Both the position numbers and the translations under genes were made by a program. A stretch of DNA of 64,000 nt, taken from assembly GCA_026874595.1 (NCBI GenBank), contig CM049313.1, positions 59,291,159 to 59,355,158 on the forward strand, written 5' to 3'. The notes under the pieces were generated by a model. The model saw only the letters and a program-made list of their open reading frames with translations. It was not told the DNA's origin and did no database searches. Of this stretch, positions 3,459 through 62,159 are shown one piece after another. This DNA is from Sipunculus nudus (taxonomy: Eukaryota; Annelida; Sipuncula; Golfingiida; Sipunculidae). Numbering within the stretch: the stretch's first letter is position 1; the number at the start of each line of letters is the position of its first letter.

Positions 3459-4170
3459 TAGCTCAGCTAACTATTAGTCATCTGAGCTAAAGTCGTGGTC
3501 CATTGTCTGTCGTCCGTCCGTCCGTACGTCTGTCCGTCCGTCGATGTGGCACGTTTTGAAACCGTAAGACCTAGGAATCCAAAATTCAGCACAATGTAAG
3601 ATGTCCCCAAGATCTCCTACCAAGCCGAAAACTGGGTCTTTGCGGCTTCGTTCCTTTGAGAATTTAAGGAAAAACCTCAATTTTTTATTAAAATCCTATT
3701 TTCACACTTCAGGACTGCCTAATATCAAAACCACTCATCTGTTTTTCCTCATATTTACCATAAATATTCCTCTATATAGTTCCTATGTACATGCCAGAAA
3801 TTAAGTCTGTAAATTATAAATTCTTTAAGTTATGGGCCCAAACATAATAGACTTTGTAAAAAATCAGGAAAAATAATAACTCACTTAACATGAAAAATGT
3901 TGAAACTAGAGTCTATTTTATCAAGTATATAACTATGTTTAATTAAGATTCAATTGTTTACCCTAAATTAGATCTGAATTTTGTAAATTTTTTAAGTTAT
4001 TAGCATAAAAAAAAAATCAGTACCTTAAATTTTGCCCAACTTTGACCATGGCACGTTTTTTTCCTGTAAGCACCATTGATTTAATTTTCACAGCATGTAA
4101 ACATAAATATTTAGTTTGTCTAAATCTGAAATTTGAAAATAAAAGCTTGAAAATTAAGCTAGTTATTGAT
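3459..4170 (+). mobile_element. Helitron/Helentron-like family A, copy A1 (3'-truncated)
   Basis: The 5' end forms a hairpin: TTAGCTCAG at 3459-3467 pairs with CTGAGCTAA at 3482-3490. A (GTCC/GTCT)n tract follows at about 3507-3542, then a body nearly identical to 4205-4890 and 34654-35330. The 3' terminus is missing because copy A2 starts directly after it, so the two are arranged head to tail. A 67-codon open frame (3601-3804) recurs in all three copies. It is probably a by-product of recent copying rather than a gene. Confidence 0.75.
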
Positions 4171-7100
4171 TTTTAGCTCAGCTGACTATAAGTCATCTGA
4201 GCTATAGTCGTGGTCCATTGTCCGTCGTCCGTCCGTCTGTCCGTCCGTCCGTCCGTCCGTCCGTCCGTCCGTCCGTAGATGTGGCACGTTTTGAAACCGT
4301 AAGACCTAGGAATCCAAAATTCAGCATAATGTTAGATGTCCCCAAGATCTCCTACCAAGCCGAAAACTGGGTCTTTGCGACTTCGTTCCTTTGAGAAATT
4401 AAGGAAAAACCTCAATTTTTTATTAAAATCCTATTTTCACACTTCAGGACTGCCTAATATCAAAACCACTCATCTGTTTTTCCTCATATTTACCATAAAT
4501 AATCCTCTATATGGTTCCTATGTACATGCCAGAAATTGGGTCTGTATTATATAATTTAAAAAAGTTATGGGCCCAAACATAATGCATTTTGTAAATAATC
4601 AGGAAAAAAATTTGATCACTTAACACAAAACTTGTTAAAGCTAAGCACTTTTTTTCCAGTAATATAACTTTTATTAATCAAAATTAAATTGTATACCCAA
4701 AATTTGATCAAAATCTTTTAAAATTTTTTTAAATATTAGCAAAAATAAAAAATTGGTAACTTAAACTTTGCCCAACTTTGACCATGGCACGTTTTTTTCC
4801 TGTAACTGCTGTGGATTTAATTTTCAAAGCATGTTTTTGTTAGCATTTCAACTGTTAACATTTAAAATTTGAAACCAGTTGATCAAAAACTGTAGATTTT
4901 ATTCAAGTTTTCAAGCACCATGTCACATATTGTTTACATCAACCTAGTGTTATGCAGTTTGCTAGAGCTCAGCTCCCCAGCTTCAGCTCTAAGTTCCTTA
5001 AATTAGGCATACAGTAAGATGTCTCCAAAATCCCCTACCATGCCAAGAATTTGGTCACCAGAACTTAATTCCTTTCGAGATATTAATGAAAAACTTCATT
5101 TTTTCATTAAAAACCATTTGTTACACTTCAGGACTGCCTAGTATCAAAACCACTGATCTGACTTTGATCATATATAATATACATATTTTTCTATACATTC
5201 GCTATGCACATGCCAGAAATGATGTCAGTATTGCGTAATTGTTTTAAGTTATGTGCCCAAACAAAATTGACTTTGTAAAAAATCAGGAAAAATATTTACT
5301 TAGGTTTCATGAAAATTATTGAAGCTAGAGAATTTTTTTTAAGTATATAACTTTGTTTAATTAAGATTTAATTGTATACCCAAAATTAGATCTGTATTTT
5401 GTAAATTTTATAAGTTATTAGCATAAACATAAAATCAGTACCTGAAATTTTACCCAACTTTGACCATGGCACATTTTTTCCCTGTGAGTACTGTTGATTT
5501 AATTTTCTCAGAATGTAAACATAAGTATTTAATGTGTTTAAATCTGAAATTTGAAACTAAAAGGTTGAAAATTAGGATAGTTATTGAATTTTATCTTGAG
5601 GGTCTATTGTAGTCACTTGCTTTGTTCCAGATGCAGGTAGGCCACTCCAGGTCACTGGAAGTCAGCTATGCCAGGGTTCCTGATTTGTTTCAGTCACTGG
5701 GGGAGATCCCCTGCTGTGACAGGTGTACAATTGTTCTCATATCACACCCCCTCCCCCCCCCCCCCATGAATATATAAATATACATTTGTATGCATGATGT
5801 GGTGTTACATGACAAGATTGAGATTTATGATGATGCAATTAAGAATTATGAATCAACGTTTATATTCAGAAATATATGTTATATTGGAAATGTATACAAA
5901 TTAAACTTAAAATAAAAAAATGAGGATCTAATACAAACATGTGTTCATTATTTTCAAGCCTCAGCAGAATTGGAGATCAGGCTTTGTTTGCCCTGAATGT
6001 TTATGCAAAAGTGTTGTTAATCCCATCTCTTCCCACCCCCCCCCCCCCCCACCCCCCGGCTGTCATTGATCCTTAGCACCTCCCCGTCACCTGTGCACTG
6101 GGACATTAGTTAATATTGCAAATGTGTACAATTTTTTCAATTTGAAAGATAATTGGATTAGAAAAAATTAAGATCTAATATTGAAACATATTCTTGCCCC
6201 AGGAGAATGGAACATAAAGTGATCAGCTCTTGTCTGTCCATCACCTCTCAATTATCATTAAATATATATACTAATTATGAAATTTTTCCTTTAAGCACTG
6301 TTGAAATAACTTTCATATGCTGTATGTGTATGGATTTAAGCCATTAAAGTCTGAAATTTGAAAGCAACTTATGTATTCAGATGTGTAATATTGCAGATGA
6401 AAAACTTTAAAATATTAAAATATATTATCAGCTTTGTTTGTCTAACAGTCTGTCTGTCCTTTTTTAAATATTATGTAATTGTGAATGGACTATTTAATCC
6501 TGTAAGTATTGTTGAATTAAGTGGAAATCCTATATGTATATACACTATGTTAATACAGAGATGTTGTAACTCCCATCATTCCAGCCCTCCCCCCCCCCCC
6601 CAACCACCACCACCAGGTTCTTGCATCTGGGGACTGGAGACATCAGTTATATTTCAACTGTATACATTTTATAAAATAAAAATACATATATTTAATAATA
6701 TATATTATGTAAAATAGATCCAATTGAGCAAATGTGTAAACTACTGAACTGTCAACAAACTATCCAAAAGCCAGCTAATGATCATGGTAATAATATACAT
6801 CTTATGTTCACAAACTGCTCACATGCTTCAATTTTGACATTAGAGAATGCATGGTTTGGTCACAAAATATTATTTGCAACAATTTCTCACTCATCAATAC
6901 AAACCAATCATGTCAACCAGCCATGGCATATATTACCTTTTCATCTTAGACTTGATCTCCATTATTATTTTAGATTTTTACCTTCAAGGCCAACTTCAGC
7001 TGAGCCCAGTGACCCATATTTATAGCACCATGTCTTGAATGTTTACATCAAGTCATTGGTTAACAGTGTTCCAGGCTGTTACATAACACCTTCACTCCTT

Positions 7101-8745
7101 GCCTACTGCTTCTGTGAGTGTCTGGGTCAGGCTGGGTCAGGCAGTAATTACCAGAGAGCCTTTCTCCTCTCTCTTTCCCTTTCTCTCTTTCTAGCTCTCT
7201 TTCTCTCTCTCTCTTTCTCTCTCTCTCACCCCTATGCCTCCCTTCCTCCCTCCACCCCATTATGTTGACAGGTACTATAAACCTAATTTATTAGATATAT
7301 ATGTTGATGCAATTAAAAAATGTGAATCAACTGAAATATTCACATATATATGTTATACTCTAAATGTATAGTTACATTTTCAAACCTGGAAAAAAATGAT
7401 GTTATAAAAAAGGGAATTTATGTAAAAATTGTTCATAATTTCCTGGCTCAGAAGAATGGGAATTAAAATTATTTGCTTTGTTTCTCTAGCTTTCTTGCCT
7501 GTTTTAAATATTTAATAATTATGAATAAACTTTTTTTTCCTGTAAGCTCTGATTAATTAAATTTCATATTCTGTACGTATATGCAAGGGTATTGTAACTC
7601 CCACCATCCCCTTCCCCCACCCCACTAAGTCCTTGCTCCTTTGCACTGTCAACAATAGTGCTATTGCTATAGCATAAAATTAAATAATTTGAAGAAAATA
7701 TATACAGAGAGACAGAGGCGTTGTAACTCCCATCGTAACCCCCCCCCCCTCCATCAAGTCCTTCCGCCTGTGGAGTGGGGATTTTATAGCAACTGTATAC
7801 ATATCATAAAATAGAAAAAACAGTTTAATTAAAGTTTAAATTAAAAAAATTGGATCTCATTAGACAAATGTGTAAAATGTTGAACTGTCAACAGCCTGTC
7901 AAAAAGGTATCGAATGAAAGCGCAAGGTCAGATCTTAAAATATTATTTGCAACAATTTCTTCAATCATATCAACCAACCATAGCCTAGATTACCTCTTTC
8001 TCTCAGACTTTATCTACATTTCATAATATTTTAGATTTTAACCTTCCAGGTGTTTAAGTACTGTTGAATGCTCCCTCCCTCTTTCTCTATCTCCTTTTCT
8101 CTCTACATACAACCCTCCTTGCTGCCCACACTGTTTCCTTCTCCGAACCCCATCCCAATGTCAGCCTCAGTAAACGAGAACAAGTTAAATCAGATATATT
8201 CATATTTTTATATATTGTATAACTGTTTGTTGCCTATGTACGTGCCAGAAATTATGTCAATATTGTGTAATATGTAGATGTGGTGGGCATCAATATAATG
8301 TACCTTGTCAAGACCTAAGAGATATCATGTCATACAGTCACAATTCATAAATCCACTCTTCAGCATAGTTAATAATAACATTATATATGTCAAATTGAAA
8401 TCTTGCGGACTTCTATACACTATAGATCCTTCAACAAATAGCCTTATCATCATTCTACCACTGCTTAGTGTACTGTCATTGCATTCATATTTGCTCAAAT
8501 ATATTGCTATTTTCAACAGCTCCCAAATAAATAAAAAATAAACCACTATATTTACTCCATATTAATCCATCAGTCAGGTAATTTCATACATGATTTACTC
8601 GCATATTACATTATATTCCTTTATAATAGCCTAATAGGTCCATGATATTCATAAGGTTTGTCGACTAAATATAGTATCACAATGGTGATACATTTATAGT
8701 TCAATCATGATCAGCTGAGCGTCGTGACCCATAGGTCCCTTGTTT
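4171..8745 (+). mobile_element. Helitron/Helentron-like family A, copy A2 (long)
   Basis: The 5' hairpin is TAGCTCAG (4174-4181) pairing with CTGAGCTA (4197-4204), with an inner TGAC/GTCA stem. A long (GTCC)n run follows at about 4223-4275. Internal modules repeat loosely: the 'actgcctaatatcaaaacc' block occurs near 4448 and in diverged form near 5132, and stretches with oligo-C tracts lie near 5750, 6040, 6590 and 7740. The 3' end at about 8711-8745 reads CAGCTGAGCGTCGTGACCC, where GCTGAGC is the inverted partner of GCTCAGC at the 5' end (a subterminal inverted repeat). No Rep/helicase ORF is visible, so it is nonautonomous. Part of the 5.7-8.7 kb body may be several fused fragments. Confidence 0.65.
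7161..7250. repeat. (CT)n-rich microsatellite
   Basis: This is a pyrimidine-rich, mainly CT/TTTC low-complexity tract inside family-A copy A2. Small open frames on both strands across it are made almost entirely of Leu/Ser or Arg/Glu and are artefacts of the repeat. Confidence 0.9.
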
Positions 8746-15760: not shown

Positions 15761-15769
15761 CCGTGGCAG

Positions 15770-16904: not shown

Positions 16905-17950
16905 TTTTAGCCCTCAGCCCTTAGGCTGATGGGCTATTGTCGTCACCCAAGCTGTCTGTCCGTCCGTCCGTCTGTCCGTCCGTCCGTCCAGCGTCAGTTA
17001 ACTTTGTGAGCGGGATATCTTGAAAAGGATTCACCGTCAGAATTTTATTTCCTCGGTAAAGATGTATATCGACAAAATCTCGGTCAAGTTCGAAGATGGG
17101 TGACCTTGACCTGTTTTTCTACATTTTAGAGCTGATTATAGAAAAACACTTAGATGCTTATTACTCAGGAACCATTTGGTGGATTTTCACAAAACTTACT
17201 ATGATTATTGGGACTGATAATCTGTACCTGCTACACAAGTTTGGTGGCGCCACCTACAATTTCTGATTTTTAATGAAAATTTATCCGATTTTTCAACTTT
17301 TGGCTTGTGAGCAGGATATCTCTAAAGGGATTCACCATAAGAATTTTATTTTTTCGGTGAAGATGTATATTGACAAAATCTCGGTCAAGTTCAAAGATGG
17401 GTGACCTTGACCTATTTTTCTACGTTTTAGAGCTGATTATAGAAAAAACATTTAGAAGCTTATTTCTCAGGAACCATTGGGTGGATTTTCACAATACTCA
17501 CTATGATCATAGGGACTGATGGTCTGTAACTGCTGCACAAGTTTGGGGGCGCCACCTGCAATTTCTGATTTTTAATGAATTTTTCTTGGATTTTTCAATT
17601 TTGGCCTTGTGAGCAGGATATCTCTAAAAGGATTCACAATAGGAATTTTATTTCTTTGGTGAATATGCATATCAACAAAATCTCAGTCAAGTTCAAAGAT
17701 GGGTGACCTTGACCTGCTTTTCAAGGTCACAGAGCTTATAATAGAATAAAACTTAGAAGCTTATTTTCAGGAAGCATTTGATGGATTGTTACAAGTCATG
17801 GTACATACCTCTCCATTTTAAATTTATAACTGAGACATGTACAGATATACATCCATGTGAGAACAGATATTTAGTACTTGTCACTGTTACCACCTCTAAA
17901 CACTGTTCTTTTGGCTGAGGGCTTTTGTCAGCTTCTGCTGATATTCTAGT
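16905..17950 (+). mobile_element. Helitron/Helentron-like family D, complete nonautonomous copy
   Basis: All expected modules are present. The 5' hairpin is AGCCCTCAGCC (16909-16919) against GGCTGATGGGCT. A (GTCC/GTCT)n tract lies at about 16953-16990. About three internal units of 301 bases begin with GTGAGCRGGATATC at 17007, 17307 and 17609. The 3' subterminal inverted repeat GGCTGAGGGCT (17913-17923) is an exact reverse complement of the 5' arm. A 3' hairpin TCAGC-TTCT-GCTGA (17928-17941) is followed four bases later by CTAG (17946-17949) and then T. There is no coding capacity. The plan matches Helentron-associated HINE/DINE-1 elements. Confidence 0.8.
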
Positions 17951-18630
17951 TTATCTCTGTTATTATTAGTCTGTTACAAAAGCACCAGTATGAAGTGATA
18001 TTCAGGCATCTCCAATGAAAAAAGCTTTTAATGTTAAGTAAATGTCTTGATACAGTATCAGAACAAATTATTTTATTCATTTATTGGTTGGGAATGCCAG
18101 ATATCAAAGGGTAACACAAGTCTATATTACCACCTTTATCCACCTTTATATTTCAGTCATAATTAGTAAAATATAAGAAAGATAATAACTTATTGAAAAA
18201 ACGTGAAAAGTGTGTCTGTTTAAATGAGTATTTCGGCCATCAGTTGCCCCCTGTGTCTCATTCAGGCTTTAATGTTAATTAAGTTTAAAGGGACTTGCAG
18301 CTGGTTGATCACAGAAAAACGGAAGTGTTGTCCATCAGTGTCAGGAGAGTGTTTCATCACGACAGATTCAATGGTTACTTAACAATCGTATGATTTTATA
18401 AATGCTTTTGATCTTCTTTTTATCTGTGGTAGATTGTACAAGCATCAGTCATCATTAACTAACACCAAAAGCATAATTTGTCCTAATTGCTTCATCTGTT
18501 GTCGTGATGGGTCAAATTCACTATTTTCTAATCAGCTTAATGTTGCAATTTTACACAGAAGACATTGTTTAAAACAACAAAAATATATAGGTCATGATGG
18601 TGTGTTAGTTTCCCTCGTCATTGAATCCGC
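17951..18630. other. no recognisable gene
   Basis: Unique AT-rich sequence between two Helitron-like elements. The open frame beginning at 18434 runs into the next repeat and has no recognisable domain. Confidence 0.55.
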
Positions 18631-18639
18631 TAAAACAGA

Positions 18640-19785
18640 GTTTTGCGGATACTACGTTTTCAGCCCACTGCCGCCGCGGCGTAGGTATCTGGAGAACTCC
18701 TCCGTAACCACTGGGCGGAATTTTACGAAACCCGGGAATTATGTTCGGGTCACATGTGAACTGCTGCGCCCTGATTTTGTTTTGACCCTCTGACCTTTCC
18801 TCTGCGCTCTGCGTCCGTTTGTGCGTCTGTTTCCACACATAAACCCACATATCTCGGGAACCGTTTGACGGATCAGGAAAATTATTTTGCCGAATGTAGC
18901 CCATGGAGAGCTTTATATGAGAGCTTTATAACATACACAAAAAATGGTGGGGCCACCTGCAACCATGTTTGCACAGTGTCCATCTGTTTGTCTGCCTCGG
19001 GTTAAAATCACTCATATCTCTGCAGTGATTTGACTAATTCACCTGAAATTTGGCATGCGTATACATCCTGGATAGCTTTTCTGATTTTATGATATTTACG
19101 CTGCAGACATCCAAGCTCATATCTCGGGAACCGTTTGACCGATTGGGCCAAAATTTTGCATGTGTATAGATCTCACATAACTCTTTATATGCAAAACTGG
19201 TGGCGCCACCTGCAGCCATTTTTAGCACAGCTCCCATCTGTTTGTCTGCCATGGGATAAAATCACTCATATCTCGGCAGTGGTTTGACATATTCGCCTAA
19301 AATTTTGCAGGTTTATACATCCCTGACAGCTCTCTTGATTTTATGACAGGTGGCGCCACATGCATTCTAGTTTATGCAGCAGACATCCAAGCTCATATCT
19401 TGGGAACCGTTTGACCGATTGGGCCAAAGTTTTGCATGTGTATAGTTCTCACATAGCTCTTCATCTTACGCAAAACTGGTGGCGTCACCTTCAACCATTT
19501 TTGCACAGCGTCCATCTGTTTGTCTGCCACGGGCTGAAGTCACTCATAAACATTAGTGGTTTGACTTATCTGCCTCAAATTTTGCATATGTATACAACTT
19601 GGACGGCTTTCTGGATTTTGTGGTAGGTGGCGCAACCTACATACACCATTTGGCTGCAGACATCCATGCTAATATGCAACACTTCACTCTATTTCCCCTT
19701 GCCACTCAATCCATGCCTCACTTCACCCGTTCCACTCTGATTTAGGCGGATACACGTAGTCGCTTGTCGACTACCCGTATTCTAG
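18640..19785 (+). mobile_element. Helitron/Helentron-like family E, copy E1
   Basis: The 5' end carries a hairpin, GATACTACG (18648-18656) against CGTAGGTATC (18680-18689). The body has about three imperfect units of roughly 270 bases built on 'catatctcgggaaccgtttg', 'ccaaaattttgcatgtgtat' and 'ggtggcgccacctgc'. The 3' end has a perfect 7-bp stem GTAGTCG (19756-19762) against CGACTAC (19768-19774), then CTAG at 19782-19785 followed by T. A second copy is at 46240-47243 and a 3' end remnant near 33700-33795. No protein is encoded. Confidence 0.8.
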
Positions 19786-20194: not shown

Positions 20195-20203
20195 ATTGTT
20201 TAT

Positions 20204-25843: not shown

Positions 25844-28800
25844 TTTTGGAATATGTAAGCTTATTGAAGTGGTTTAATTACAGATTTGACACTTGGAAAT
25901 ATTTCTTAGGTTTGAAATACGGGTAGTATAAAATTCAGTGATTGCCACCTTTCAGTGACTGTCCAGAATATATATATGTGTGATGATACTATTTAGATAA
26001 AATAAGCATATTATTTAACTAAGATTCTTTATGTATGGAATGCTGGATGCAGAATTGGGCATGTGGAATGCATGTTGAGGGAGGGATTTCATATGAACCT
26101 GTACAGTGGCATGCATGTTTTCTATGTGTCGCCCCTGGATACCATGTGGAATCTTCATGTAGCGATTCTTTTTGCCAGATATTCATTCCACATGTTGGAT
26201 CCACACATAAGGAATCTCACCTTATTTATTTAGTCAATAATGATTTTATCCCCATGATGCATTCCGCACAAATGGAATCTTAGCTGTACCCATTTTTGCG
26301 TTTAGACAGGTCCACATGACTTCAATGTAGGATGGGTTTTCCATGGTCCTAGAGCACTGGAAATTTGATATCAGGAGGTCAAAGGTCAAGATCAGATCTG
26401 AAGTTAACTTCAATTTGGTTTTAAATTGTTTAAATTCCTGTTGTGAAGGTTATCCAATAATGTCATGCTAGTCAGCTGAGTGTCACGTCCCATTGGTCAC
26501 TTGTTCTTTATTATTGTTCAGCTCAGCATTATGGACAGTGGGTCATTAATCAGCTGACCATCATGGACCATCAGAATGTCTCCTGCGGGTAAATCTTTCT
26601 CATCAAAAACAATTGTCAAGCCCACTATATTTCAAATTATTTGATGGGACATGCCAGCTGTTTCATGATTAACAGGTAAATAGTTTGTAAGTGCTGTATT
26701 ACAATTTGCTTTGAAGAAGACATGCTAAGACATGTAAGAATGCAATTCAGCTATTGCATCCTAAAAATCTCTCCAGGCTAGGGCGTGATCGAGTTTGTGA
26801 ACTGGAAGCTCTTTGGATCATAAATAAGATGAAAGAATACATAAATATTTAATGGCAGAATATTGAATTCTATGTCAGATTTAAAAAAAGAAAAATATTT
26901 AGGAATGGACATCATTGGAACCTATATATAGCATGATTTTATTGAAAAGTTACTTTGTTTCCAAGGGCAACATCATATTGACCATGTTTTAAATTAGATA
27001 GAAGTGAAGTATGTGATATTGCTTATTGCTGGATAAAAGAACCAGAGCTGCCATTTTCTCCTCTTAATATGTCGGTTATCATCTTGAGCCCAGATACATG
27101 TCTGATTGTACTTAAGTGCTACTATCTATTAAATGCCCTGACACTGTCTCTGTTAGGTATTGATACAATATTCATTTGACAAGTAAAATGAGTACTTTAT
27201 AGTCATTTGGGCCATTTCATTTGACATTTGAGAATCCTAAAATAGAGTATATGCTTCTTGTAAATTAGGATTCCCTTTTATGGAATTAACTTAGAGAAGA
27301 CTTGAGTACTTCTGTATACATGTATACCTGAATTTGTGTATATTTTTATAAATTCTGTGGTTGGATTTTTTTCAAAATAATTGCTTTTTTATGCTTTGAC
27401 ATCCAATTCCCCAATCCTAAAAAAAAATTGTTAGCACCTTGAAAATTGATAAATTTTGAAAGTAATATTCAGCTAGGTCATTAACATATTGAATTTTGGC
27501 TTTCAACAATGTTACATATACCCAGTTTGGCAAACTGTGGAATTTTTCAGAGACCTTTAGTATAAACAACTAATATGTGACATCCGGAACCTCCCGGGAA
27601 AAATGAGAATTCTGATTTTTCCAGGGAATAATGAAAATCCAGAGATAGTATGAAGGGATTCCCATTCTTTAAAAAAAAATGAGAATTCTCATTCTTCCTG
27701 GGACAAGTGAGAAATCAGTCTCTCGTGGGAGAGATTGGAATTCAGTTTTGAAATTCAGATCTTGGAAAAATGAGAATTCTCATTCTTCCTGGGAAGAATG
27801 GGAATTATTGATGCCAACTTAAATATTTTAATTTTTTTCTTACTTATTTCTCTTAACAGGAAGAAGCTTTGATCATCTTTCTTTCACATTAATTCTGAAA
27901 TGTTCAAGTGTTAACTGACATTTTGTCAGATGTGTTAGTCAATTTAACATAGATGTTTATCTTAACTATAAAGTGTATTGAAAACATTTTAAATTAACCT
28001 TGCTCATGGAATTCTCAGGTCAACCAGTTCAGATCCAAACTCAATTTGATTCCAATGTACATTGACATATATAAATGGTTATGGCCTATATATGTTAACC
28101 AGAGCAAAAATCTGGATTTATCAGTGTACTGTAATACCTGTGCTGACCAGATTGTGATTGGCTAAAGACCAGATCGAAGCACATTTAGATCAAAGTTGCA
28201 TCAGCCAGATTGAAAATTTATAGTTTGGTCTTAGTTTTGTATGATTAAGTACCATGTGGGCCTTTGGTTTAATTTATCAGTTATAAAAATTGTATGTACT
28301 GCAGTCATTAATGCCATTAAGACATTATTGTAGATCCCTAGAACATGCTAAAGAGTTGCTGGTCAGGGGACACTGCTCGGTGTGAGATTTATATGATGAG
28401 CAATGAGAGCAGTTGTCTTGTCCCAAGGCACTTTAAGAAAGCAGGGCAGAATTGAAGATAAAAAGTTGAACTGATATTGTTCATCTTGTTGTTCACATGA
28501 TGACTATTTGGGAACAAGCTGGGAAACCCCCCTTATGTAAACTCAGCACTTTCACCTACATAGGCTCCCCTCATATGAAGTGGTGATATACAGCTGAGAG
28601 ATCTTGTTTGATTTATGAAGGGAAAGTGGTTGTATGAGGATGAGAGGCCCATATGACCATCAAATGTGTGTTGGTTTGTACTGCTGTAACATATAAAAAC
28701 CCTGCTGGACCTTGGCCCAGAAAGCTGTAGATTTAATGGAGTGCTAACATGACCTTGGCCTAGTTCTTCTAACATTGCACCCATAGAAATAGGGAAGGTT

Positions 28801-45830: not shown

Positions 45831-46239
45831 TAATACACTCATTTATGATGAAACTGTTAAGCTGATTGGTTTAAATTTTACAAGAATTATTCTATGGTAG
45901 GGTTCTGCCAGTTTTATAAGAATAGATTGGGTGAATACAGCTTTAAAATGCATTGTAGCAAATTGAATAAGGCTTTCTGTGTTTGAAAACAGATTTGACA
46001 ACATGCTGAGTTTCAGCAGCCAAGTCAAGAGGTCACTTAGTACAACCAGATGGGGTCCAGACATCACCGTGGCAACTGACCTGGTTCTGGCGGGTGTCTA
46101 GACAATGTGTCTAGACACAGCGTCTAGACGTCTAGACACAATGTCTAGATGCAGAATTCCCAGATTATTGGAACTATATCTTTCAACTGTTTGAAAAAAC
46201 TTGGTTTTCATTTTAAGTGAATCGGGTTTATCATCAAGT
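45831..46239. other. unique sequence with a GTCTAGAC palindrome cluster
   Basis: No gene was recognised. At about 46095-46150 the palindrome GTCTAGAC or its half TCTAGAC/GTCTAGA occurs five times in 55 bases, with short spacers. Confidence 0.6.
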
Positions 46240-47243
46240 CAATTGTGAACTGCTGCGCCCTCATTTTTGGTTGACCTCTGACCTTTCCTCACTGCCCACC
46301 GTCCATTTGTGCGTCTGTTTCCACACATAAACCCACATATCTCAGGAACTGTTCGACTGATCAGACTAAAAATTTGCACAAATGTAGCCCTTTGATAGCT
46401 TTATAACATACACTAAAAATGATGGGGCCAGCTGCAACCATTTTTGCACAGCATCCATCTGTTCATCTGCCTTTGGATAAAATCACTCATATCTCAGCAG
46501 TGGTTTGACTTATCCACCTGAAATTTTGCAGATTAATACATCCAGGACAGCTTTCTTGATTTTATGACAGGTGACACCACCTACATTCAGGTTTACTCTG
46601 CAGACATCCAAGCTCATATCTCGGGAACCATTTGACCAATATGGCCAAAATTTTGCATGTGTATAGATCTCACATAGCTCTTCATCATAGGCAAAACTGG
46701 TGGCGCCACCTGCAACCACTTATGCACAGCGTCCATCTGTTCATCAGCCTTGGGATAAAATTGGTCATATCTCAGAAGTGGTTTGACTTATCCACCTGAA
46801 ATTTTGCAGGTTTATACATCCTGGACAGCTTTCTTGATTTTATGACAGGTGGCACCACCTACATTCACCCGATTGGGCCAAAATTTTTCTTGTGTATAGA
46901 TCTCACAGATTTCTTCATCATAGGCAAAACTGGTGGCGCCACCTGCAACCACTTATGCACAGCATTCATCTGTTCATCTGCCTTGGGATAAAAATCACTC
47001 ATATCTCAGCAGTGGTTTGACTTATCCACCTGAAATTTTGCAGGTTTATACATACTTGACAATTTTCTCGATTTTATGACAGGTTGCACCATCTACAGTC
47101 ACGTTTATGTTGCACGACATCCATGCTTATATGCAACACACCTCACTCTATTCCCCTTGCCACTTAATCCATGCCTCACTTCACCCGTCCCACTCTGATT
47201 TCTGCGGATACACATAGTCGCTTGTCAACTACCCATATTCTAG
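46240..47243 (+). mobile_element. Helitron/Helentron-like family E, copy E2 (5'-truncated)
   Basis: It matches E1 from TGAACTGCTGCGCCCT onward and includes three imperfect internal units. Perfect GGTGGCGCCACC palindromes are at 46699-46710 and 46932-46943. The 3' stem has decayed (TAGTCGCTTGTCAACTA), but the terminal CTAG (47240-47243) followed by T is kept. The 5' hairpin is missing. Confidence 0.75.
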
Positions 47244-47451: not shown

Positions 47452-48616
47452 TTTTACTATAAAATGACAACAGTCATGTCAGTTTCTCAGCTGTGGTTAC
47501 ATCTAGTGTCCCAAAATTTGGTGTGTATATTGATTACAAGTGGATGCCCTATAGTAATCACCATGTCTTTCCGTCCATCTGTCTGTCCTTACAAATTTGT
47601 TTCCAGCAGATAACTCCAAGCTGGATTGACATATGGACTTAAACATGACTTGCATATGGCCAACCACTAAAGAAAGAACCTGTATGGTTTTTGGGTCATG
47701 AGGTCAAAGGTCAAAGTCACAGGACACTTATTTACAAGGATTAAAGCTGCATTTTAAGCCAAGCTTTTCATCTTAAACTTTCCATCTTGCACATTTAGCT
47801 GACTTGCCAGTATGGGAAGGCATAAATGAATTTGGGGTCACACGGTCAATGTCACAGGGGCCATCTGTTTACAAATAAGTTTCAAGTTGATAACTTCAGT
47901 TTAGTTTGAATTATTGGTTTCAAACCTAATTCATATATGGCTCATCAGTTAAGCAAGAACTCTGATGATTTTGGGGTCCAAAGGTCAAAAGGTCAAGGTC
48001 ACAGGACCTATTTCTTTAAAAGAAATGTGTATGCATTTCAAGACAAACTTTTCATCACAAACCTTCCATCTTCAAGATATTATAATACTTATTTGTCAAT
48101 AGGGGAAGATTCTTTTCGATTTGGGGTCATAATGCAAAAGTCAGGGTCAAAGGGCCTATCCATCCACAAAGAAGTTGATGGATGATAATTCTGTTTTGGA
48201 TAGACATATTGGCTTCAAACTTGATTAATTATTAACACACCACTTTAGTAAGAAACATTTTGATTTTCAGGGTCCAGAGATCAAAGGTGAAGGTCACAGG
48301 AGCCACATCTTAAATTGATTGTGGATGCACTGTAAATCAAACTTTTTATCCCAAACTTTCCATCTTTCACAGATGGCTTACTTGCCCAGGGTGGAATAAA
48401 TCTTTAGATTTGAGGTTACCTTGTCAGAGGTCAAGGTCACCGGACCCATTTTTTTAAAAGATTTTTACAATAATCTAAATGCTGCCAGTTCAAGGATACT
48501 AAGGTTTTTGGTCACAAGGTTATTGATTCAGGTCACAGGACTGTCATTCTGAAAAATTTCTTTAAAATATTCTTAAAGACAAATTCAGCTGAGCATTGAG
48601 ACCCCTTGGTCCATAG
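47452..48616 (+). mobile_element. Helitron-like family C, copy C2
   Basis: It follows a run of about 20 T (47436-47456) and starts TTTACTATAAAATGACAACA as C1 does. A short GTCCATCTGTCTGTCC tract lies at about 47572. Four imperfect internal units carry 'gaggtcaaaggtcaaagtca' or similar. A perfect DR1 site is at 47701-47713. The 3' terminus CAGCTGAGCATTGAGACCCC (48586 onward) keeps the family pattern, but its hairpin and CTAG have decayed to CATAG. Confidence 0.7.
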
Positions 48617-48983: not shown

Positions 48984-51900
48984 TGTATCCCAAGACAAAC
49001 TATGTTTTCATACCGGTCCCCCCGCTGCCGCTGCATAAAAATCTTGTTGGCGTGATAACTCAAAAAATATTTCACAGATCTTTACTAAACTTGGTATATG
49101 TAAAGATATGGGTGAGAGGACGACGCCTATTTAAAATGAGGTCATGACCTTTACTAGGAGAGTGTCCTTGACCTTGAATAGGTCCAATTTTTTGGAAAAT
49201 CGCACAAATTCTTAAATATCTCAAGAAATCTTGTATGGATTGATCCCAAAATCAAGTTGATGGAAGATCATGGATAGGGTTGTCATGTTTCAGAAACTGG
49301 TGGCGCCACCTATTATTGTATCCCCAGACAAAGTCGGGGGATACTATGTTTTCATACCGGTCCCGCCGCCGCTGCTGCATATAAATCTTGTTGGCGCGAT
49401 AATCAAAAATAAATTTCACGGATCTTTACCAAACTTGGTATATGTATAGATATGGGTAAGAGGATGACGCCTATTTAAAATGAGGTCATGACCTTATACT
49501 AGGAGAGTGTCCTTGACCTTGAATATGTCCAATTTTGGGGAAAATCACACAAATTCTTTAATATCTCAAGAAATCTTGCATGGATTTATCCCAAAATCAA
49601 GTTGATGGAAGATCAGGGATAGGGTTGTCAGGTTTCAGAAACTGGTGGCGCCACCTATTATTCTTTACTTGTTTTCGTGCCATTTAATACCCCCAAAATT
49701 CCCACCTTACTGTACTGTGAGCATTATAAGTCAAAAACTAATGGACAGATTTCTTTTATAATATGCATATACATAGGTATGGGTTATGGGATGATGTTGA
49801 TTTAAATTGGGGTCATGACCTTTCCTATGATAGTGGCCTTGACCTTGAAAATTGCCATATATGGTGAAAATCTCACACCTCTTATGATATCTCCAGTGTT
49901 GATAGCCATATGGATTTCAAACATGACTTATGTATGGCCCACCACTAAAGTAAGAACCCATAGGTTTTAGGGTCATGAGGTCAAGGTCACTGGACTGGCA
50001 TTTTAAAAGATACTGTGGATGCATTTTAAGCCAAACTTTGATATAGCTCACTTGCCAATAGTGGATGATCCATATCAATTTTTGGGTCACAAGGTCAAAG
50101 GTCAAGGCCACGGGAGCTATCTGTCCAAAAATTAGTTTCTGGATGATAATTCCTGCTTTTATTGATGTATTGATTTCAAACTTGACTTATATATGTCCCA
50201 TTGAAAAAGCAAGACTCCAATTGATTTTGGGGTCATGAGGTCAAAGGTCAAGGTTACAGGACACATCTTTAAAAAGATTGTGGATGCAATTTTAGCCAAA
50301 CATTTTATCTCAGACCTTTCATCTTGCACATATAGTTCACCTGCCAAGAGATGAAGAACCCTATCAATTTTGAGGTCACAAGGTCAAAGGTGAAGGTCAC
50401 AGGAGCCATCTGTCCAAAAATTAGTTCCTGGATGATAATTCCTGCTTTTATTGATGTATGGATTTAAAACTTGACTTGTATATGTCCCATTGGAAAGCAA
50501 GACCCAAATTGATTTTGGGGTCATGAAGTCAAAGGTCAAGGTCACAGGACACATCTTTAAAAAGATTGTGGATGCATTTTCAGCCAAACATTTCATCTCA
50601 GATCTTTCATCTTGCACATATAGTTCACCTGCCAAGAGTGGAAGACCCCTATCAATTTTGAGGTCACAAGGTCAAAGGTGAAGGTCACAGGAGCCATCTG
50701 TCCAAAAATTAGTTTCTGGATGATAATTCCTGCTTTTAGTGATGTATGGATTTCAAACTCGACTTGTATATGTCCCATTGGAAAAGCAAGACCAAAATTG
50801 ATTTTGGGGTCATGAGGTCAAAGGTCAAGCTCACAGGACACATCTTTAGAAAGATGTGGATGCATTTTCAGCCAAACATTTCATCTCAGAGAGGAAGAAC
50901 CCTATCAATTTTGAGGTCACAAGGTCAAAGGTGAAGGTCACAGGAGCCATCTGTCCAAAAATTAGTTTCTGGATGATAATTCCTTCTTTTATTGATGTAT
51001 GGATTTCAAACTTGACTTGTATTTGACCCATTGGAAAAGCAAGACCCAAATTGATTTTGGGGTCATGAGGTCAAAGGTCAAGGTCACAGGAAACCTCTTT
51101 AAAAAGATTGTGGATGCATTTTCAGCCAAACAATTCATCACAGATCTTTCATCTTGCACATATAGTTCACCTGCCAAGAGAGGAAGACCCCTATCAATTT
51201 TGAGGTCACAAGGTCAAAGGTGAAGGTCGCAGGAGCGATCTGTCCAAAAATTTATTTTCTGGATGATAATTCCTGTTTTTAGTGATGTATGGATTTCAAA
51301 CTTGACTTGATATGTCCCATTGGAAAAGCAAGACCAAAATTGATTTTGGGGTCATGAGGTCAAAGGTCAAGGTCATAGGCCACATCCTTAAAAAGATGTG
51401 GATGCATTTTCAGCCAAACATTTCATCTCAGATCTTTCATCTTGCACATATAGTTCTCCTGCGAAGAGAGGAAGAACACTATCAATTTTGAGGTCACAAG
51501 GTAAAAGTTGAAGGTCACAGGAGCCATCTGTCCAAAAATGAGTTTCTGGATGATAATTCCTGCTTTATTGATGTATAGATTTCAAACTTGACTTGCATAT
51601 GTCCCATTGGAAAGGCAAGACCCGAATTGATTTTGGGGTCATGAGGTCAAAGGTCAAGGTCACAGGACACATCTTTAAAAAGATCAAGGTCACAAGACCA
51701 ACATCTTCAACAAGATTGTTGATTGTTAGATGGAAGAAACAATCAATATGCCCAGTGTCAGTATATGCTGATAAAAATGGGGGTCTATTCTTGAAGGGGG
51801 GGGGGGCCTCCTATGTCTGGGGATACTCTGGCACCTGCGGTGCCAAGAAATGTTTAGTTTTTTACTTGTTTTCATGCCATTTAATACCCCCAAAATTGCC

Positions 51901-52562
51901 ACTTGACAGTACTGTGAGCATTATAAGTCAAAAACTAATGGACAGATTTCTTTTATATTATGCATATACATAGATATGGGTTATGGGATGATATTTTTTT
52001 AAATTGGGGTCATGACCTTTCCTATGAGAGTGGCCTTGACCTTGAATATTGCCGTATATGGTGAAAATTACACAAAATCATTAATATCTCAATAAGGGAT
52101 GCATGGATTGGTCCAAAAATCAACTTGACCGAAGATCTTGGATAGTATTGTCATGTACCGGAAACAGGTGGCGCCACCTGTTATTCTTTTACTTGTTTTT
52201 GTGCCGTTTAATACCCCATCATTGCCACTTAACAGTACTGTGAGCATTATAAGTCAAAAGTAAAAAACTAATGGACAGATTTCTTTCATATTATGCATAT
52301 ACATATACATGGGTTAAGGGATGATGTATATTGAAATTGGGGTCATGACCTTTTCTATGAGAGTGACCTTTTCTATGAGTGTGGTCTGATATTAATTGTT
52401 GCTGAAGATGGGAGGCCTATTCTTAAAGGGGGGGGGGGATTAAACGTCTGGGGATACTATGGCACCTGCGGTGCCAAGAAATGTCTAGTTGTTGCTGAAG
52501 ATGGGGGGTCTATTCTAAAAGGGGGGGGGATTAATTGTCTTGGGATACTATGGCACCTGCGG
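48984..52562 (+). mobile_element. Helitron/Helentron-like family G, composite copy G1 with duplicated ends
   Basis: There are two 5' termini: a decayed GTATCCCAAGACAAACTATG at 48984 and an intact one at 49318 with hairpin ATCCCC/GGGGAT. There are three 3' termini. GGCACCTGCGGTGCC hairpins lie at 51830-51844 (then TTAG) and 52461-52475 (then CTAG at 52485-52488), and a truncated one at about 52551. The 3' block ATGTCTGGGGATAC is the inverted partner of the 5' GTATCCCCAGACA. Between them lie copies of a 330-bp 5' module and a six-unit array of about 290 bases. Nothing is coding. Repeated ends suggest read-through or tandem rolling-circle products. Confidence 0.8.
49900..51720 (+). repeat. tandem array of ~290-bp units inside G1
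   Basis: Units start at about 50171, 50461, 50748, 51001, 51291 and 51575, giving periods of 290, 287, 253, 290 and 284 bases; an older partial unit precedes them. Each unit holds GTCCCATTGGAAAAGCAAGA, GGGGTCATGAGGTCAAAGG, 'ttcatctcagatctttcatc' and GTCACAAGGTCAAAGGTGAA. Perfect DR1 sites (AGGTCAAAGGTCA) lie at 50092, 50238, 50815, 51068, 51357 and 51644. Confidence 0.85.
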
Positions 52563-55500
52563 TCTACCTTATGTGACCAGACCATTTAATTAGATCTAAT
52601 TAAGACCCATACATGTGAAGTGAATCTGTATCCCATCAGAAACACCTTTATCTCCTGCACAAAAAAAAAATGACACACACTGTAGGTACATGAAAGTATA
52701 ATATCAGTCCTTTAATGGCAGATCTCAATTTAATGTTAGAAATTAATTACAATGTACCAATTATAATTGCTCATCAGTCAGAACTTTGAATCATTGATCC
52801 TGCCCTGCCATACTCATTTACAAAGCTTTGTAAATAACATAGGCTTACGATGAGGAAATGTATGCTTTCATAAAATTAATGTGAGCAAATTCTAGAAAAG
52901 TCTGTGTTACTTCATGCCCAAGGTTACTACCCACACATATATAGGCTATATTATTACATACATTAGCAAACATATACAGCTTTATATCAGTTGAGATGAT
53001 GTACAGGCCTATATAAGGTAAAAAATATATACTCTTAAAGAACTGATCAATTCCAATTATTGGTCAGTAATGATCAACCAGTATTTTCTGAGGATTATTC
53101 AGGAAGTTACAGCCATTTCCAAAATGATAACAGTCATAGTCTAGCTGTCTGATAAACTATTAATTAATGAATGTTTTGATAACATGCAATGATAAAGTAT
53201 CTTACCACTGCGACCACAAACTATCTGCATGGTTATAAAATAAATCTGAAACCATGGCAGACATCAGTCTTTCTTGATGTAATGTCAGATATTTTTTAAA
53301 TCCCATCCACAAAAGAGCAGCCTGATTAAATGTCACGTTTATCAGTAATTATACGGAAACCAATGTTTTATGTTAAGAAAATCAGTAATAAGTTACGGCA
53401 AGTCATTGTGTGATGCAGGTTGTATTCAGAATGATCCAGTTCACTTTTAAGGATTTTTTTATCTTCTTAATGATTAAAAATCTTTCTACACCAATCTACT
53501 GACCCAGTTCCACAAAACAAGGAGGGGTGGAGGGGGAGGGGCACATATCTAGGGGTGGATGGATCATGCAGGGTGATAAGCCTTGAGGGAAGTTGGTATG
53601 TGTTCAATTGGATGCCATTCTAGTTATCCTACATGAAGCAAACAGTCTTGTTCACAGCTGATTCTGAGTGTTTGTGTGTATGTTTCCGCAAGTATCTGAA
53701 GAATGGTCCTCCTGATTTAATTAAAATTAATTTACAGGTGGAGAGTGTGAGAATATCCAAGTGATTAAATTTTTGCATGAATCCCAGTGGAAATAATCGT
53801 GGGATGAGCATTTCATGGGGTTTGGCAGCTTTTTTTATGTTTTGACTTGCAACCTGTGACTATCTGTAGGGCTTGAAATGTGTTGTCACCAGGGATAATG
53901 AAGTCACACCATTTCCTAGAAAGGTGGCAGTATTGTCATGAATGTTGATCATTGAGAGAATAATCCAGGCCTGCTATAACGCAATACCAAGCTGTGTTTT
54001 CAAGACAGATTTCCATCGAAAAAACATTCCCAGGAAAAGTATGTGGTTAACAACCAATACTTCAGGTAAACATCTTGAGTTGTTTTCTTTGAGCACCATC
54101 TTATGTGCAGGGTTTGTGCCCCCTTATAATTTTTGACAGGTAGAATTTTTCTTTTAAAATCACAGGGTTTTACAAGTTACTTGTAACTACTCTTATCTTC
54201 TATTGAAACTGATCTATACTTAATGCATTTATATTTTAAGTGTTTTACACTGGGTGAATTCCACAAACTATTGATACTTTTCCTTCTTGAGTGATGGGTT
54301 AAATATATACAAAGTGTGTACAGGTTTGGTCTACCTGTCTGTAACCTGGGACCTATATATACCTCATCCCATTAGCAGCAGGTGAAATGAGACAGAACAG
54401 GTAGCAGACAGAAACTTGTTCGCAGAAATGAACTGCACTGTGTTGCCATTATGTCATGAAAACATTTCGTCTGCCAGACAGTACAGCACAGGCAAATAGT
54501 ACGTGAAAATTATTAGTGCACCTGTTGCATGGAGCTATTGGCAACAGTTTCTGAGAAACTGAAGGTATTGCATCTAAAGCCATCCTGTGGAGCATTAAGA
54601 AAGCTTCTTACTTATGTACAGACATGTATAATTTGTGTTACACATACTGCATTTTAATTAAATTTTTTTTGCTCAGCATGCAATTCTTGGAAATCATATG
54701 TCAGCCATTATTTTGTCTGCTTGTCTGTGTTCATACAGTATTTAAATCTCCTGCTAAAATGTGGACCAGTGTAGCAAAAGGTAAATGCCTTTTCCTTTTT
54801 GACATATCTGGGTCAGGGATCAAAGGTCAAGGAGTTAAAGGTTAGAGTTCAGGTGTCAGATGATGAAACCTTGATATCTTCATGGTGTAGTATCTTAAAA
54901 TTAAACTTCAGATTGATGTGACCCAAATATTTTTAATTATGCTTAAATATAGAGCAGGGGTAGATGGGAAAATATGAAAAGGTCAGTGGACAGATCAGTG
55001 AGCGGAAGCTATGTGATAGAATCATTAGTCGTCTTGATGTTCCTCTGATATACAAAGTAATGCTATATTGTTAATACTGTTTTAGAGATGCCACTATGAG
55101 GTGCTAACAAAATGTGTCTTCTGGTAATTCCAGGTAGTGAGATATAATCTGTACTGTCTCAGGCAGTCTGCCAGTTCCTGTGAATCAGCCACCCACAAAC
55201 CTGCCTTGTGTACTGCTGTTTATGTGTTTGGTACTGCTGGGTCTTCACCAGCTCATACAGTCTGTATACAGTCTGGGTCTCCTAAAAAATACAACATAAA
55301 GCAAGATAAATATAAAGCCTTAATCATCTACTCTGTGTTATATAAATAAAAACATTTCCTTGGGTGAAAGAGGAATATACATCTTCGCACATTGTCAAAG
55401 TTTTTCAAGGAAACCCATCTGTAAACTTGTCAGGTTTTCCTCGGTTAAGTTTAAGCAGATTGACGCACTTGATGGCATCATGCCTACATAAACAGATGCA

Positions 55501-55850: not shown

Positions 55851-55851
55851 G

Positions 55852-57939: not shown

Positions 57940-58071
57940 GTGAAGATATATGGCCTCTTACTTCCTGTGACACAGGTAATCTTGTCAAAAGTATGTGCTT
58001 CCTGCTGGGGAACTGATTAAAGGATCACAGTGATTGTGACCACTTTCAGCAGGCCATTTTTTATTTAACAG

Positions 58072-59027: not shown

Positions 59028-59439
59028 GTAAGTAGCAACATTAAGGTATGCAGTCGTATGCATTACGTGTGCAAATGGAGTTGGGAATTGGACAATCATT
59101 ACTGCATATATGCGTATGCAGTAAGTATGCATTTATACATATGGGTATGCAGCACATTTTGTTTGCTCAGGGTAGCGATTGAAAACATATATGCATGGTA
59201 AGAGATACAGAAATGCCAAACTTTTACGTAAGTAATCGGGTATTCCTGTGGCAGAAGAATTCTCTACTCCTGGATCTCTATGATATAGGCCTGATTTTAC
59301 CACATACGTACCACAAATGCATACATATTAATGGAATCACAGGTGTCTGTTTTCCAGCTGCATAACACAGATGTACTGCATACTCACAAGTATTGCATAC
59401 GCAATAAACGGAATGCTAGCTTTATCTTGTTCACTCGTT
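59028..59439 (+). other. start of CRTC intron, unique part
   Basis: Unique sequence after the donor at 59028. Several TATGCAGTAAGTATGC / GTATGCAGTC-type TATGC motifs cluster at 59040-59160 (at least seven), an unexplained local repeat of TATGCA/TGCATA. No further exon was found. Confidence 0.6.
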
Positions 59440-62159
59440 GTATCCCCAGACAAAGTCGGGGGATACTATGTTTTCATACCGGTCCCCCCGCCGCCGCCGC
59501 TGCCGCCGCATATAAATCTTGTTGGCGCGATAACCAAAAAAATATTTCACGGAACTTTACCAAACTTGGTATATGTATAGATATGGGTAAGAGGACAACG
59601 TCTATTGAAAATGAGGTCATGACCTTTATTGGAGAGTGTCCTCGACCTGGAATAGGTCCAATTTTTTGGAAAATCACACAAATTCTTTAATATCTCAAGA
59701 AATCTTGCATGGATTTATCCCAAAATCAAGTTGATGGAAGATCATGGATAGGGTTGTCATGTTCCAGAAACTGGTGGCGCCACCTATTATTCTTTACTTG
59801 TTTTCGTGATGTTTAATACCCCCAAAATTGCCACCTTACAGTACTGTGAGCATTATAAGTAAAAAAATAATGGACAGATTTCTTTTATATTATGCATATA
59901 CATAGGTATGGGTTATGGGATGATGTTTATTCAAATTGGGGTCATGAGCTTTCCTATGATAGTGGCCTTGACCTTGAATATTGCCATATACTGTAGATTC
60001 AGATAATATTGTGTGCTTAAAATTTCGTGGTTTTTGTACAAAACACATATCGTGGGGTATTTTAATTCGTGGAAAGACAAAGAAAACTTTAGAAAATTAT
60101 TGTTATTAATACCTCCATATGCGCAAGGAAGACGAGCCCTATGTACACAGGTGCTTTGGCTCAGATGCTTATCGCACGGTGCGCCTGTACCGCGGTCAAT
60201 CAGGTCAGTGTTGAACAAACATGCTCCGCCCGACGCGAGCCTAACAAAGAATTAATCAGCCGTGACCGACACGTGCTGGGCGATACATCGGCTGTTAGTT
60301 GTAACACCCGATACATCGGCTATCAGTTATAACACCCGATCACACCACGTTAACAGAAAACGTAAATCATCACTTGACCGGGGGAAAAAATAAACGGGAC
60401 CGTCCACATGAAGGTTTTTAACTTTTTTTTTATCTAGGCGGTAGTCACATGTGGCGCCTGTAAATCCCTGACGGGGCGGTGAGACGAGACACGGTTCGTT
60501 CGTCATTCATCATGTCAGCTATATTTGGAGATTATAAAGAAATAATTAGCCTAATAGTATTCGGTGATGCTTACTTACGCTAACATATATATGTACCACT
60601 ATCGGCAATATTCGGAAAAAGTACCGCCTTATTCGGAATAAGTGCTCTTTCGCGTCCCGCGGTAATCAAGGTAATGCAAATGAGTTTACACGGCCCTTGT
60701 CTTTTGGACCAATAGGTAGCGTAAGTCTCGTTTAATATCTATTGAAAGAAGGTTGAAAAGCTATGGTTACGAACATTGGAACTTGTGTACCGTTCTTGGC
60801 GTGTCAGAACTACCGCTTTGCTCGACAGAAATGTGATATTGTTCTTGAATTTTTCATCCGAAATGCTGATAAGAGGAAAATACGTTTTCAGTTTAAATTA
60901 TACTTTGATATTGTTTTATTGTAAAGATATCAGGGGGCCGTGTTCGTACGATATTAGGGGAAATAATTTAATTGACAAAAGAATATTTATAAATCCCGTA
61001 TTTTTATAGTAATTTACGAAAAGCAATTCAGTGCATTTAATGATTGTATCAAAAACAATCATAAAAAAGTAATAAACAATTTTTGTATCTTTATTGAAAA
61101 TTCAGCCAGCGTTAACAATTATGAATATAAAGTCGACCACCAGCTGCCGTTGAGATACCGTATATCCTCTGACCGTGTGATTTTTTGATCGTTGGAATCA
61201 TGAATTCGTGGATTATCTTGATCCACGAAAACCACGAAAATAAAATCCCAACTAATATTTCTGAATCTACAGTATGGTGAAAATCTCCAGTGTTGATAGC
61301 CATATGGATTTCAAACATGACTTATGTATGGCCCACCACTAAAGTAAGAACCCTATAGGTTCTAGGGTCATGAGGTCAAAGGTCAAGGTCACTGGACTTG
61401 CATTTTAAGAAATACTGTGGATGCATTTTAAGCCAAACTTTCATCCCAGGTCTTCCATCTTGAATATATAGCTCACTTGCCAATAGTGGATGATCCATAT
61501 AAATTTTGGGGTCACAAGGTCAAAGGTCAAGGCCACAGGAGCTATCTATCCAAAAATTAGTTTCTGGATGATAATTCCTGCTTTTATTGATGTATTGATT
61601 TCAAATTTGACTTATATATGTCCCATTAAAAAAGCAAGAGTCCAGTTGATTTTTGGGTCATGAGGTCAAAGGTCAAGGTCACAGGACACATCTCTAAAAA
61701 GATTGTGGATGCATTTTCAGCCAAACATTTCATCTCAGATCTTTCATCTTGCACATATAGTTCTCCTGCCAAGAGAGGAAGAACACTATCAATTTTGAGG
61801 TCACAAGGTCAAAGGTGAAGGTCACAGGAGCCATCTGTCCAAAAAAATTAGTTTCTGGATGATAATTCCTGCTTTATTGATGTATAGATTTCAAACATGT
61901 CTTGCATATGTCCCATTGGAAAAGCAAGACCCAAATTGATTATGGGGTCATGAGGTCAAAGGTCAAGGTCACAGGACACATCTTTAAAAAGATCAAGGTC
62001 ACAGGACCAACATCTTCAACAAGATTGTGGATTGTTAGATGGAAGAAACAATAAATATGTGTCAGTATATGCTGCTAAAAATGGGGGTCTATTCTTAAAG
62101 GGGGGGGGCCTACTATGTCTGGGGATACTCTGGCACCTGCCATGCCAGGAAATGTCTAG
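59440..62159 (+). mobile_element. Helitron/Helentron-like family G, copy G2, in the CRTC intron
   Basis: The 5' terminus GTATCCCCAGACA with the ATCCCC/GGGGAT hairpin is at 59440-59466. It is followed by a CCG-rich tract and the 330-bp module ending in GGTGGCGCCACC (59773-59784). The internal 290-bp-type units carry DR1 sites at 61373, 61517, 61663 and 61953. The 3' end has ATGTCTGGGGATAC, a decayed hairpin GGCACCTGCCATGCC (62132-62146) and CTAG at 62156-62159 followed by T. It is interrupted by the transposon at 59991-61272. No coding capacity is seen. Confidence 0.8.
59991..61272. mobile_element. TA-flanked TIR DNA transposon nested in G2
   Basis: The ends are CTGTAGATTCAGATAATATT and, on the other strand, CTGTAGATTCAGAAATATTA (13 bp identical, longer imperfect). 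Subterminal TTCGTGG motifs occur at both sides. TA is duplicated at 59989-59990 and 61273-61274. Copy G1 preserves the empty site (GCCATATATGGTGAAAA, 49854-49870), which confirms both ends and the duplication. TA duplication fits Tc1/mariner-type elements, but no transposase is present. The interior includes a CpG-rich block (60120-60490) and a 28-bp tandem duplication (60281-60336). Confidence 0.85.

Follow-up and report, generated by a model that had tools for sequence, protein, structure and literature searches.

The stretch of the Sipunculus nudus genome analysed here, referred to as the window, comprises 64,000 nucleotides of contig CM049313.1 (G000:C8:59291159-59355158 in our numbering). 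It contains copies of several repeat families, labelled A, D, G, H, I and J, which differ in sequence but follow a common body plan, and which the evidence below supports as Helentron-associated interspersed elements (HINEs), that is, non-autonomous rolling-circle elements. Copies of unlike families tend to share one strand over gene-sized distances and, in a sample of introns, lie almost exclusively in the sense direction. Word and profile searches were made over the 1.43-Gb genome.

Repeat families with a common body plan

Families A, known from its 5' end, and J, known from its 3' end (CAGCTGAGCG..GACCCATRGGTCCCTTG^T, where ^ marks the element border), look like the two halves of one family, AJ, in which the 5' arm GCTCAGCTG pairs with the 3' arm of J. 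The plan common to AJ, D, G, H and I begins with a 5' hairpin, whose first arm recurs in inverted form close to the 3' end; a 3' hairpin and the terminus CTAG^TT follow. In all five, a stem-loop near the 3' end is located outside the 3' subterminal inverted repeat (subTIR). The 5' arm of I is known from one copy alone, at window position 18621, and is mutated. A preliminary description of the window had proposed such a shared plan with a GTCC or equivalent tract. The arms and tracts are present at the places indicated, with GTCC tracts at 4227, 16954 and 34676, whereas G is without such a tract, the tract of I is merely weak and AJ mostly ends in CTTG^TT rather than CTAG^TT. The inverted arms named for D (16909/17913), G (59440/62116 and others) and H (29941/31628) were all found, as were the internal tandem units, with lengths of 302 bp in D, 288-289 bp in G and 180 bp in H.

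To quantify how often the arms occur, we counted exact matches to single arm words, not arm pairs, on the two strands of the genome and compared these with counts for the identical word reversed. The D arm word yielded 2137+2161 matches (44+34 reversed), the G arm word 4251+4315 (9+13), the H word ATGCCCCYGCC 4610+4519 (88+98) and the 3'-arm word of I 1698+1801 (10+9), which amounts to thousands of occurrences versus tens expected by chance. A 31-mer from the 5' end of A matched 6988+7093 times (14,081), versus 0+0 for its reverse. The 7-bp exact arm in a single window copy of H is at chance level, since a pairing of that length was reached in 276 of 1000 random placements, whereas the 9-bp exact complementarity in one window copy of AJ was reached by 34 of 1000. 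For D, G and H the proof of the body plan is carried by genome copies and not by single window copies. On fetched genome copies the inverted arms measured 11 bp in D, 13 bp in G and 11 bp in H, in line with the minimum of at least 11 bp used to define HINEs; the 9-bp arm of AJ is below that minimum.

Strand polarity of the copies

The polarity of the copies was unexpected and goes unmentioned in the preliminary description. HINE clusters in the window and in introns were identified with an oriented library cut from the window (10.1 kb). All 15 clusters in the window were on the + strand; the source copies of the library match + by construction, and their direction rests on the termini. All 22 terminus matches were likewise on +, and the GTCY tracts were distributed 8 versus 0 on one strand.

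Gene strand and introns were obtained from 126 matches to kinesin-domain exons, from which we selected by eye 17 kinesin-type genes with matched exons in order and fetched 4.8 kb per intron. The introns contained 18 HINE clusters, 17 in sense and 1 in antisense, the latter being a 78-bp weak match to I (L091). Clusters were present in 12 introns, 11 of which were all sense while one was tied (11/11, p = 0.001); a thirteenth intron (L080) contained nothing but a sense AJ-type end. GTCY tracts were found 6 times in sense and 0 times in antisense, across three introns.

We also examined whether neighbouring copies agree in strand, using the first 100 listed places of each oriented word (A, D, G, H and I), all of which are on one chromosome (C1). 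The listed places of A form same-strand runs in which some spacings recur. Because these runs may be duplicated arrays, the comparison was made across families and included D, H, G and I. Among the matches listed, the nearest places of different families were on the same strand in 58/61 cases at less than 10 kb, 82/92 at 10-25 kb, 82/94 at 25-50 kb, 104/139 at 50-100 kb, 111/167 at 100-250 kb and 85/178 at 250-1000 kb, so that agreement was at chance beyond 250 kb. Without A, the corresponding numbers were 28/29 (<10 kb), 45/66 (50-100 kb), 52/85 (100-250 kb) and 25/64 (250-1000 kb). Pairs in the distance bins share places and their p-values are not independent; a safer count takes one adjacent cross-family pair (<25 kb) per locus, with loci at least 50 kb apart, and here 52 of 59 pairs agreed, or 41 of 47 without A; when strand labels were shifted, the observed total was reached in 0 of 300 shifts. 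Nested copies were parallel to the matched window HINE in seven loci (L007, L013, L017, L020, L024, L037 and L043); this count omits L018, L034 and L040, where the host sequence was weak or not recognised as a HINE. As a separate observation, A copies are densely clustered at C1:96 kb-1.15 Mb; nearly all have the same orientation, and the recurrence of spacings there hints at an amplified array.

For a control, we looked through the fetched loci for an interspersed family other than HINEs but settled on none, so the word GGTTCGANTCC, which we take to be the tRNA B-box, was used instead (5063+5858 genome matches versus 695+645 reversed). After thinning at 5 kb, which removed 24 of 100 listed places and kept 76, the B-box was on the same strand as the nearest HINE in 2/12 cases at less than 10 kb, 4/10 at 10-25 kb and 3/10 at 25-50 kb. 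On these counts, the strand agreement is not shared by the control.

Ends and target sites

To read the ends, we retrieved copies of D (20), G (10) and H (10) from C1 that were picked because both arms were listed. In 39 of the 40 both ends were readable: a 5' flank rich in T leads into the hairpin, and the inverted arm is followed by the 3' hairpin, CTAG (with two one-base variants) and T; the remaining copy (L032, family G) had no readable 3' end and was left out of the end and empty-site counts. The 5' flank had T at position -2 in 39/39 copies, at -1 in 37/39 and at -5 in 38/39, the exception being an H copy, while at position -3 the base T predominated in families D and H and the base A in family G. 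The 3' flank began with T in 39/39 and with TT in 38/39 copies, and the insertion consensus is about TT(T/A)TT^TT.

When the flanks of each copy were joined and compared with the window and the fetched loci, 15 of 39 matched across the junction. Empty sites with 0-2 extra nucleotides numbered 8 (L011, L013, L017, L024, L034, L036, L037 and L040), of which L034 had just 71% identity, and four others (L009, L014, L018 and L022) were uninformative. The empty sites contain no target duplication beyond TT, which may be either the element end or a 2-bp duplication, the two being indistinguishable.

Helentrons of the same genome

The preliminary description had proposed to search for a Rep/helicase reading frame, and such Helentrons are present in the genome, some of them with AJ or H 3' ends. 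PF14214 had 143 genome matches, 14 of them within open frames of at least 1000 amino acids. Four translated frames (L001, L003, L004 and L005) contained Helitron_like_N and PIF1 helicase domains. The endonuclease match was above the cut-off in L001 and L004 and below it in L003, while endonuclease-like code was judged by eye to lie further on in a broken stretch of L005. With regard to other domains, the N-terminal region of the L003 and L004 proteins matches PF04843, named from a herpesvirus tegument protein, and L001 has a match to OTU protease. The frames of L003, L004 and L005 contain 63-bp (21-residue) tandem repeats with seemingly variable copy number.

We examined 34 Helentron 3' regions (L001-L006, L047-L060 and L061-L074). 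A sense AJ-type 3' end was found at 8 loci, or 9 with L006, a duplicate of L005; these are L003, L005, L006, L054, L058 (diverged), L062, L065, L070 and L073. Partial matches, of 24 nt in L072 and 12 nt in L066, were not counted among these, and an antisense AJ-type end was also found in the regions L058 and L066. AJ-type ends are frequent, and the window alone has six, including two degenerate ones; since they are so common, finding one beside a Helentron is weak evidence, and the strong evidence comes from co-terminating copies. From the stop codon to CTTG^TT, a distance of 1,026 bp, L003 and L054 share 98.8% identity, and they diverge right after CTTG^TTT, which fixes the end of that Helentron.

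The H terminus was found in one of the 34 regions, L055, at 33/33 nucleotides. It is located about 310 bp behind the stop codon at the end of a short endonuclease match, which scores below the cut-off (E = 0.00014) and whose frame has an earlier stop. The final 55 bp of H are matched at 84%, and between the stop codon and the H end there is a single diverged unit resembling that of H (66.7% over 150 bp). In its 3' tail this Helentron seems to carry the 3' module of H, although, given the single copy, an old H fragment may instead have landed behind it.

AJ and H match different Helentrons, each in its 3' arm and hairpin, as published families match theirs. The ends of D, G and I occurred in 0 of the 34 regions, and the Helentrons of a first lineage (L001, L002, L047-L053, L056, L057, L059 and L060) showed none of the window families' 3' ends in the stretches read, which reach about 2.6-3.1 kb beyond the stop. 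The piece upstream of L055 had no match to the Helentron N-terminus. The suggestion in the preliminary description that a single machinery moves many families by structure rather than sequence is at best partly supported, in that AJ and H point to different Helentrons while D, G and I are without a partner in these regions.

Other features of the window

The copies and parts of copies in the window are listed in Table 1. The two ends of the AJ element at 34619..37229 probably derive from one copy, to judge from their position and the 9-bp arm complementarity. The sequence that interrupts the second G element is a 1.28-kb element (59991-61272) with terminal inverted repeats CTGTAGATTCAGA / TCTGAATCTACAG, which, when set against the G copy near 49856, seems to be flanked by a TA target duplication. 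A 29-bp minisatellite with about 55 copies occupies 62276-64000 and extends to the window end, and palindromic tandem units based on CTGGGC(T)GGCCCAG are located at 21898-22238.

Table 1. HINE copies and partial copies in the window, with the positions of their structural parts.
Feature	Position	Strand	Structure
Two consecutive AJ 5' ends and internal sequence	3455..5600	+	5' ends at 3455 and 4170
AJ-type 3' end	8712..8742	+	CTTG^TT
D element	16907..17949	+	arm 16909-16919 (AGCCCTCAGCC), hairpin partner 16924-16935, GTCC tract 16954-16989, 302-bp tandem 17004-17794, 3' arm 17913-17923 (GGCTGAGGGCT), hairpin, CTAG^TT at 17949
I element	18621..19785	+	mutated 5' arm GAATCCGCTAAAA, partner TTTTGCGGATAC, 3' arm TTTAGGCGGATAC, hairpin GTAGTCG..CGACTAC, CTAG^TT
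AJ-type 3' end, diverged	26473..26503	+	CTTG^TT
H element	29939..31657	+	ATGCCCC hairpin (arm at 29941), TCCGTC tract 29974-30007, 180-bp tandem 30022-31560, 3' arm GGGGCAT 31628-31634, hairpin, CTAG^TT
J part	31741..32528	+	AJ-type 3' end CAGCTGAGCGTCGAGACCCATGGGTCTCTAG^TT
AJ element	34619..37229	+	5' hairpin TTTTTAGCTCAGCTGAC..CTGAGCTA, (GTCC)n, 3' arm CAGCTGAGCG, hairpin, CTTG^T
I element, internal and 3' part	46210..47243	+	CTAG^TT
J part	47564..48615	+	AJ-type 3' end, degenerate
Compound G	48985..52563	+	5' ends 48985 and 49318, 288-bp tandem units, 3' ends 51814-51857 (TTAG), 52445-52488 (CTAG) and 52536-52563 (cut)
G element	59438..62159	+	arm 59440-59452, partner 59454-59466, interrupted 59991-61272, 3' arm 62116-62128, hairpin, CTAG^TT

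Discussion

The HINE/DINE-1-like identity put forward in the preliminary description is supported by the anatomy, the 39 read copies, the empty sites and the presence of Helentrons with Rep, helicase and endonuclease in the genome, some of which share 3' ends with the families. The body plan by itself is already published for Helentrons, HINEs and DINE-1, in oyster too, and the families described here are further HINEs. In Drosophila and mites, the published plan includes subTIRs, an inverted repeat beside the 5' subTIR, a microsatellite, central tandem repeats, a 3' stem-loop, insertion at TT or T-rich sites, and a partner with Rep, helicase and endonuclease whose terminal structures are the same; the parts of that account considered here do not mention strand in relation to host genes (PMC4067079). 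The 11 Cg_HINE elements of the oyster Crassostrea gigas are similar in having a 5' subTIR, an inverted repeat, a microsatellite (GTCY/GTCC in several), satellite-like tandem repeats, a 3' subTIR, a palindrome and T-rich empty sites without target site duplication (PMC7492417). They have no autonomous partner that could be linked to them according to the sections considered (PMC7492417), whereas in Sipunculus the 3' ends of AJ and H are found on Helentrons. The Helraiser/Helibat Helitron shares the 3' hairpin and the CTAG-3' end, and differs in its TC start, AT target and absence of inverted terminal repeats; the parts of that report considered here contain no orientation test (PMC4778049).

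Insertion with a preferred strand has a bacterial parallel. The IS200/IS605 elements also use an HUH-type nuclease, have terminal hairpins and insert in a strand-polarised manner, but their polarity is set by replication rather than transcription. We know of no settled account of how Helitrons and Helentrons choose and open their targets.

We lean, if only slightly, towards the reading that the HINEs are moved by Helentrons of the same genome and inserted at T-rich sites in sense to the local transcription unit, with Rep attacking the exposed coding strand. The Rep/helicase/endonuclease proteins of these Helentrons would mobilise the HINE families, and Rep would attack T-runs of the coding (non-template) strand where an R-loop or transcription bubble leaves them single-stranded. 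Joining of the element strand to such exposed T-runs would give the sense orientation whatever the family. The broader statement, that Helentron integration is coupled to transcription and that the orientation of HINEs, whatever their family, is a record of which way the germline transcribes, seems to us evenly poised between right and wrong. A single-stranded mobile intermediate is a published hypothesis for Helitrons (PMC4067079), and Helraiser insertions are over-represented in promoters and gene bodies, an effect that is stronger for highly expressed genes (PMC4778049).

The composition of the target was considered as a cause of the polarity and rejected. T-rich target sites numbered 304 in sense and 233 in antisense in HINE-masked introns, and 211 on the + and 249 on the - strand of the window; counts so near to balance cannot yield ratios of 17:1 or 15:0.

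The main rival is random insertion followed by the purging of antisense copies within genes, where they could cause early polyadenylation or mis-splicing or act as antisense promoters. Intronic transposons are commonly shaped by selection, and the library contains 7 polyadenylation hexamers in sense versus 20 in antisense (10.1 kb). We nevertheless consider purging rather unlikely as the source of the polarity, though it deserves to be taken seriously. In the library, neither the J piece nor the two pieces of I have such a hexamer in either direction, yet I is found in sense in the introns L081, L089 and L093. In a simple model with purging in genes only, close copies agreed in 59-83% of cases when the gene fraction was set between 0.5 and 0.95, versus the 95% (58/61) observed in a sample that is blind to genes. 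The D copies, moreover, are young, with a median divergence of 3.05% from a script-made consensus. We infer the action of Rep, a single-stranded target and a bias that would arise at insertion; a bias at insertion is favoured since the purging model falls short of 95% agreement, the D copies are young and the target composition does not account for the polarity.

Polarity could also arise from replication forks, if the elements inserted into the lagging-strand template, as IS200/IS605 do, and the forks ran along genes. Such a single-strand mechanism predicts local strand domains, which are observed, but the agreement fades within about 100-250 kb, nearer to gene than to replicon size, and the sense bias is nearly complete in the sampled genes, so that we regard this explanation as improbable. 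More improbable still is tandem or segmental duplication, or insertion in the same direction beside other HINEs, with no link to genes. The recurring spacings of A on C1 (190971/191203/197886 and 455489/455727/462444) would fit such a process, and Helitrons have been reported near other Helitrons in bat and maize (PMC4067079). However, different families at varied spacing still agree, as do the 41 of 47 independent loci counted without A, and a sense direction in 11 separate genes is not predicted. That the families are transposons with terminal inverted repeats (miniature inverted-repeat transposable elements) and a TT duplication is hardly credible and this class was rejected: the arms are inverted near both ends and TT flanks the readable sites on either side, but the 3' hairpin and CTAG are outside the 3' arm, which makes the arms subterminal there and the ends asymmetric, the repeats are not at both extreme ends, no duplication extends beyond TT, and the gene-bearing elements with AJ and H 3' ends are Helentrons.

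Besides the excess of antisense polyadenylation hexamers, several observations weigh against sense-directed insertion by Helentrons. Gene strand was compared in a single gene family. Strand agreement without A was weaker at 10-25 kb (39/49) and 25-50 kb (30/38), the nested D copy in L022 is opposite to its host element, and the B-box control was below one half rather than at it (9/32 on the same strand within 50 kb). At three of the 15 empty sites (L007, L020 and L043) the filled copy is at least 8 nucleotides short, and searches for hairpins, arms and the 5' ends of A and H upstream of L003, L005 and L055 found no 5' end of an autonomous Helentron. In other animals, intronic INE-1 copies are reported in both orientations on chromosome four of Drosophila melanogaster (PMC5624886), and oyster HINEs are described as integrated "in both orientations" genome-wide, with no gene-strand test in the sections of that account considered here (PMC7492417). 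Among the titles and abstract openings listed in a literature search, none dealt with gene-strand polarity of Helitrons or HINEs, with most subscription journals outside the search.

It is the strand polarity, and not the body plan, that we consider worth following, and it can be checked directly in annotated mollusc genomes. If true, a near-complete sense polarity across unlike families would point to single-stranded DNA of the coding strand as the target, and the strand of the HINEs would then serve as a marker of transcription units, a fossil strand map that includes the unannotated ones.

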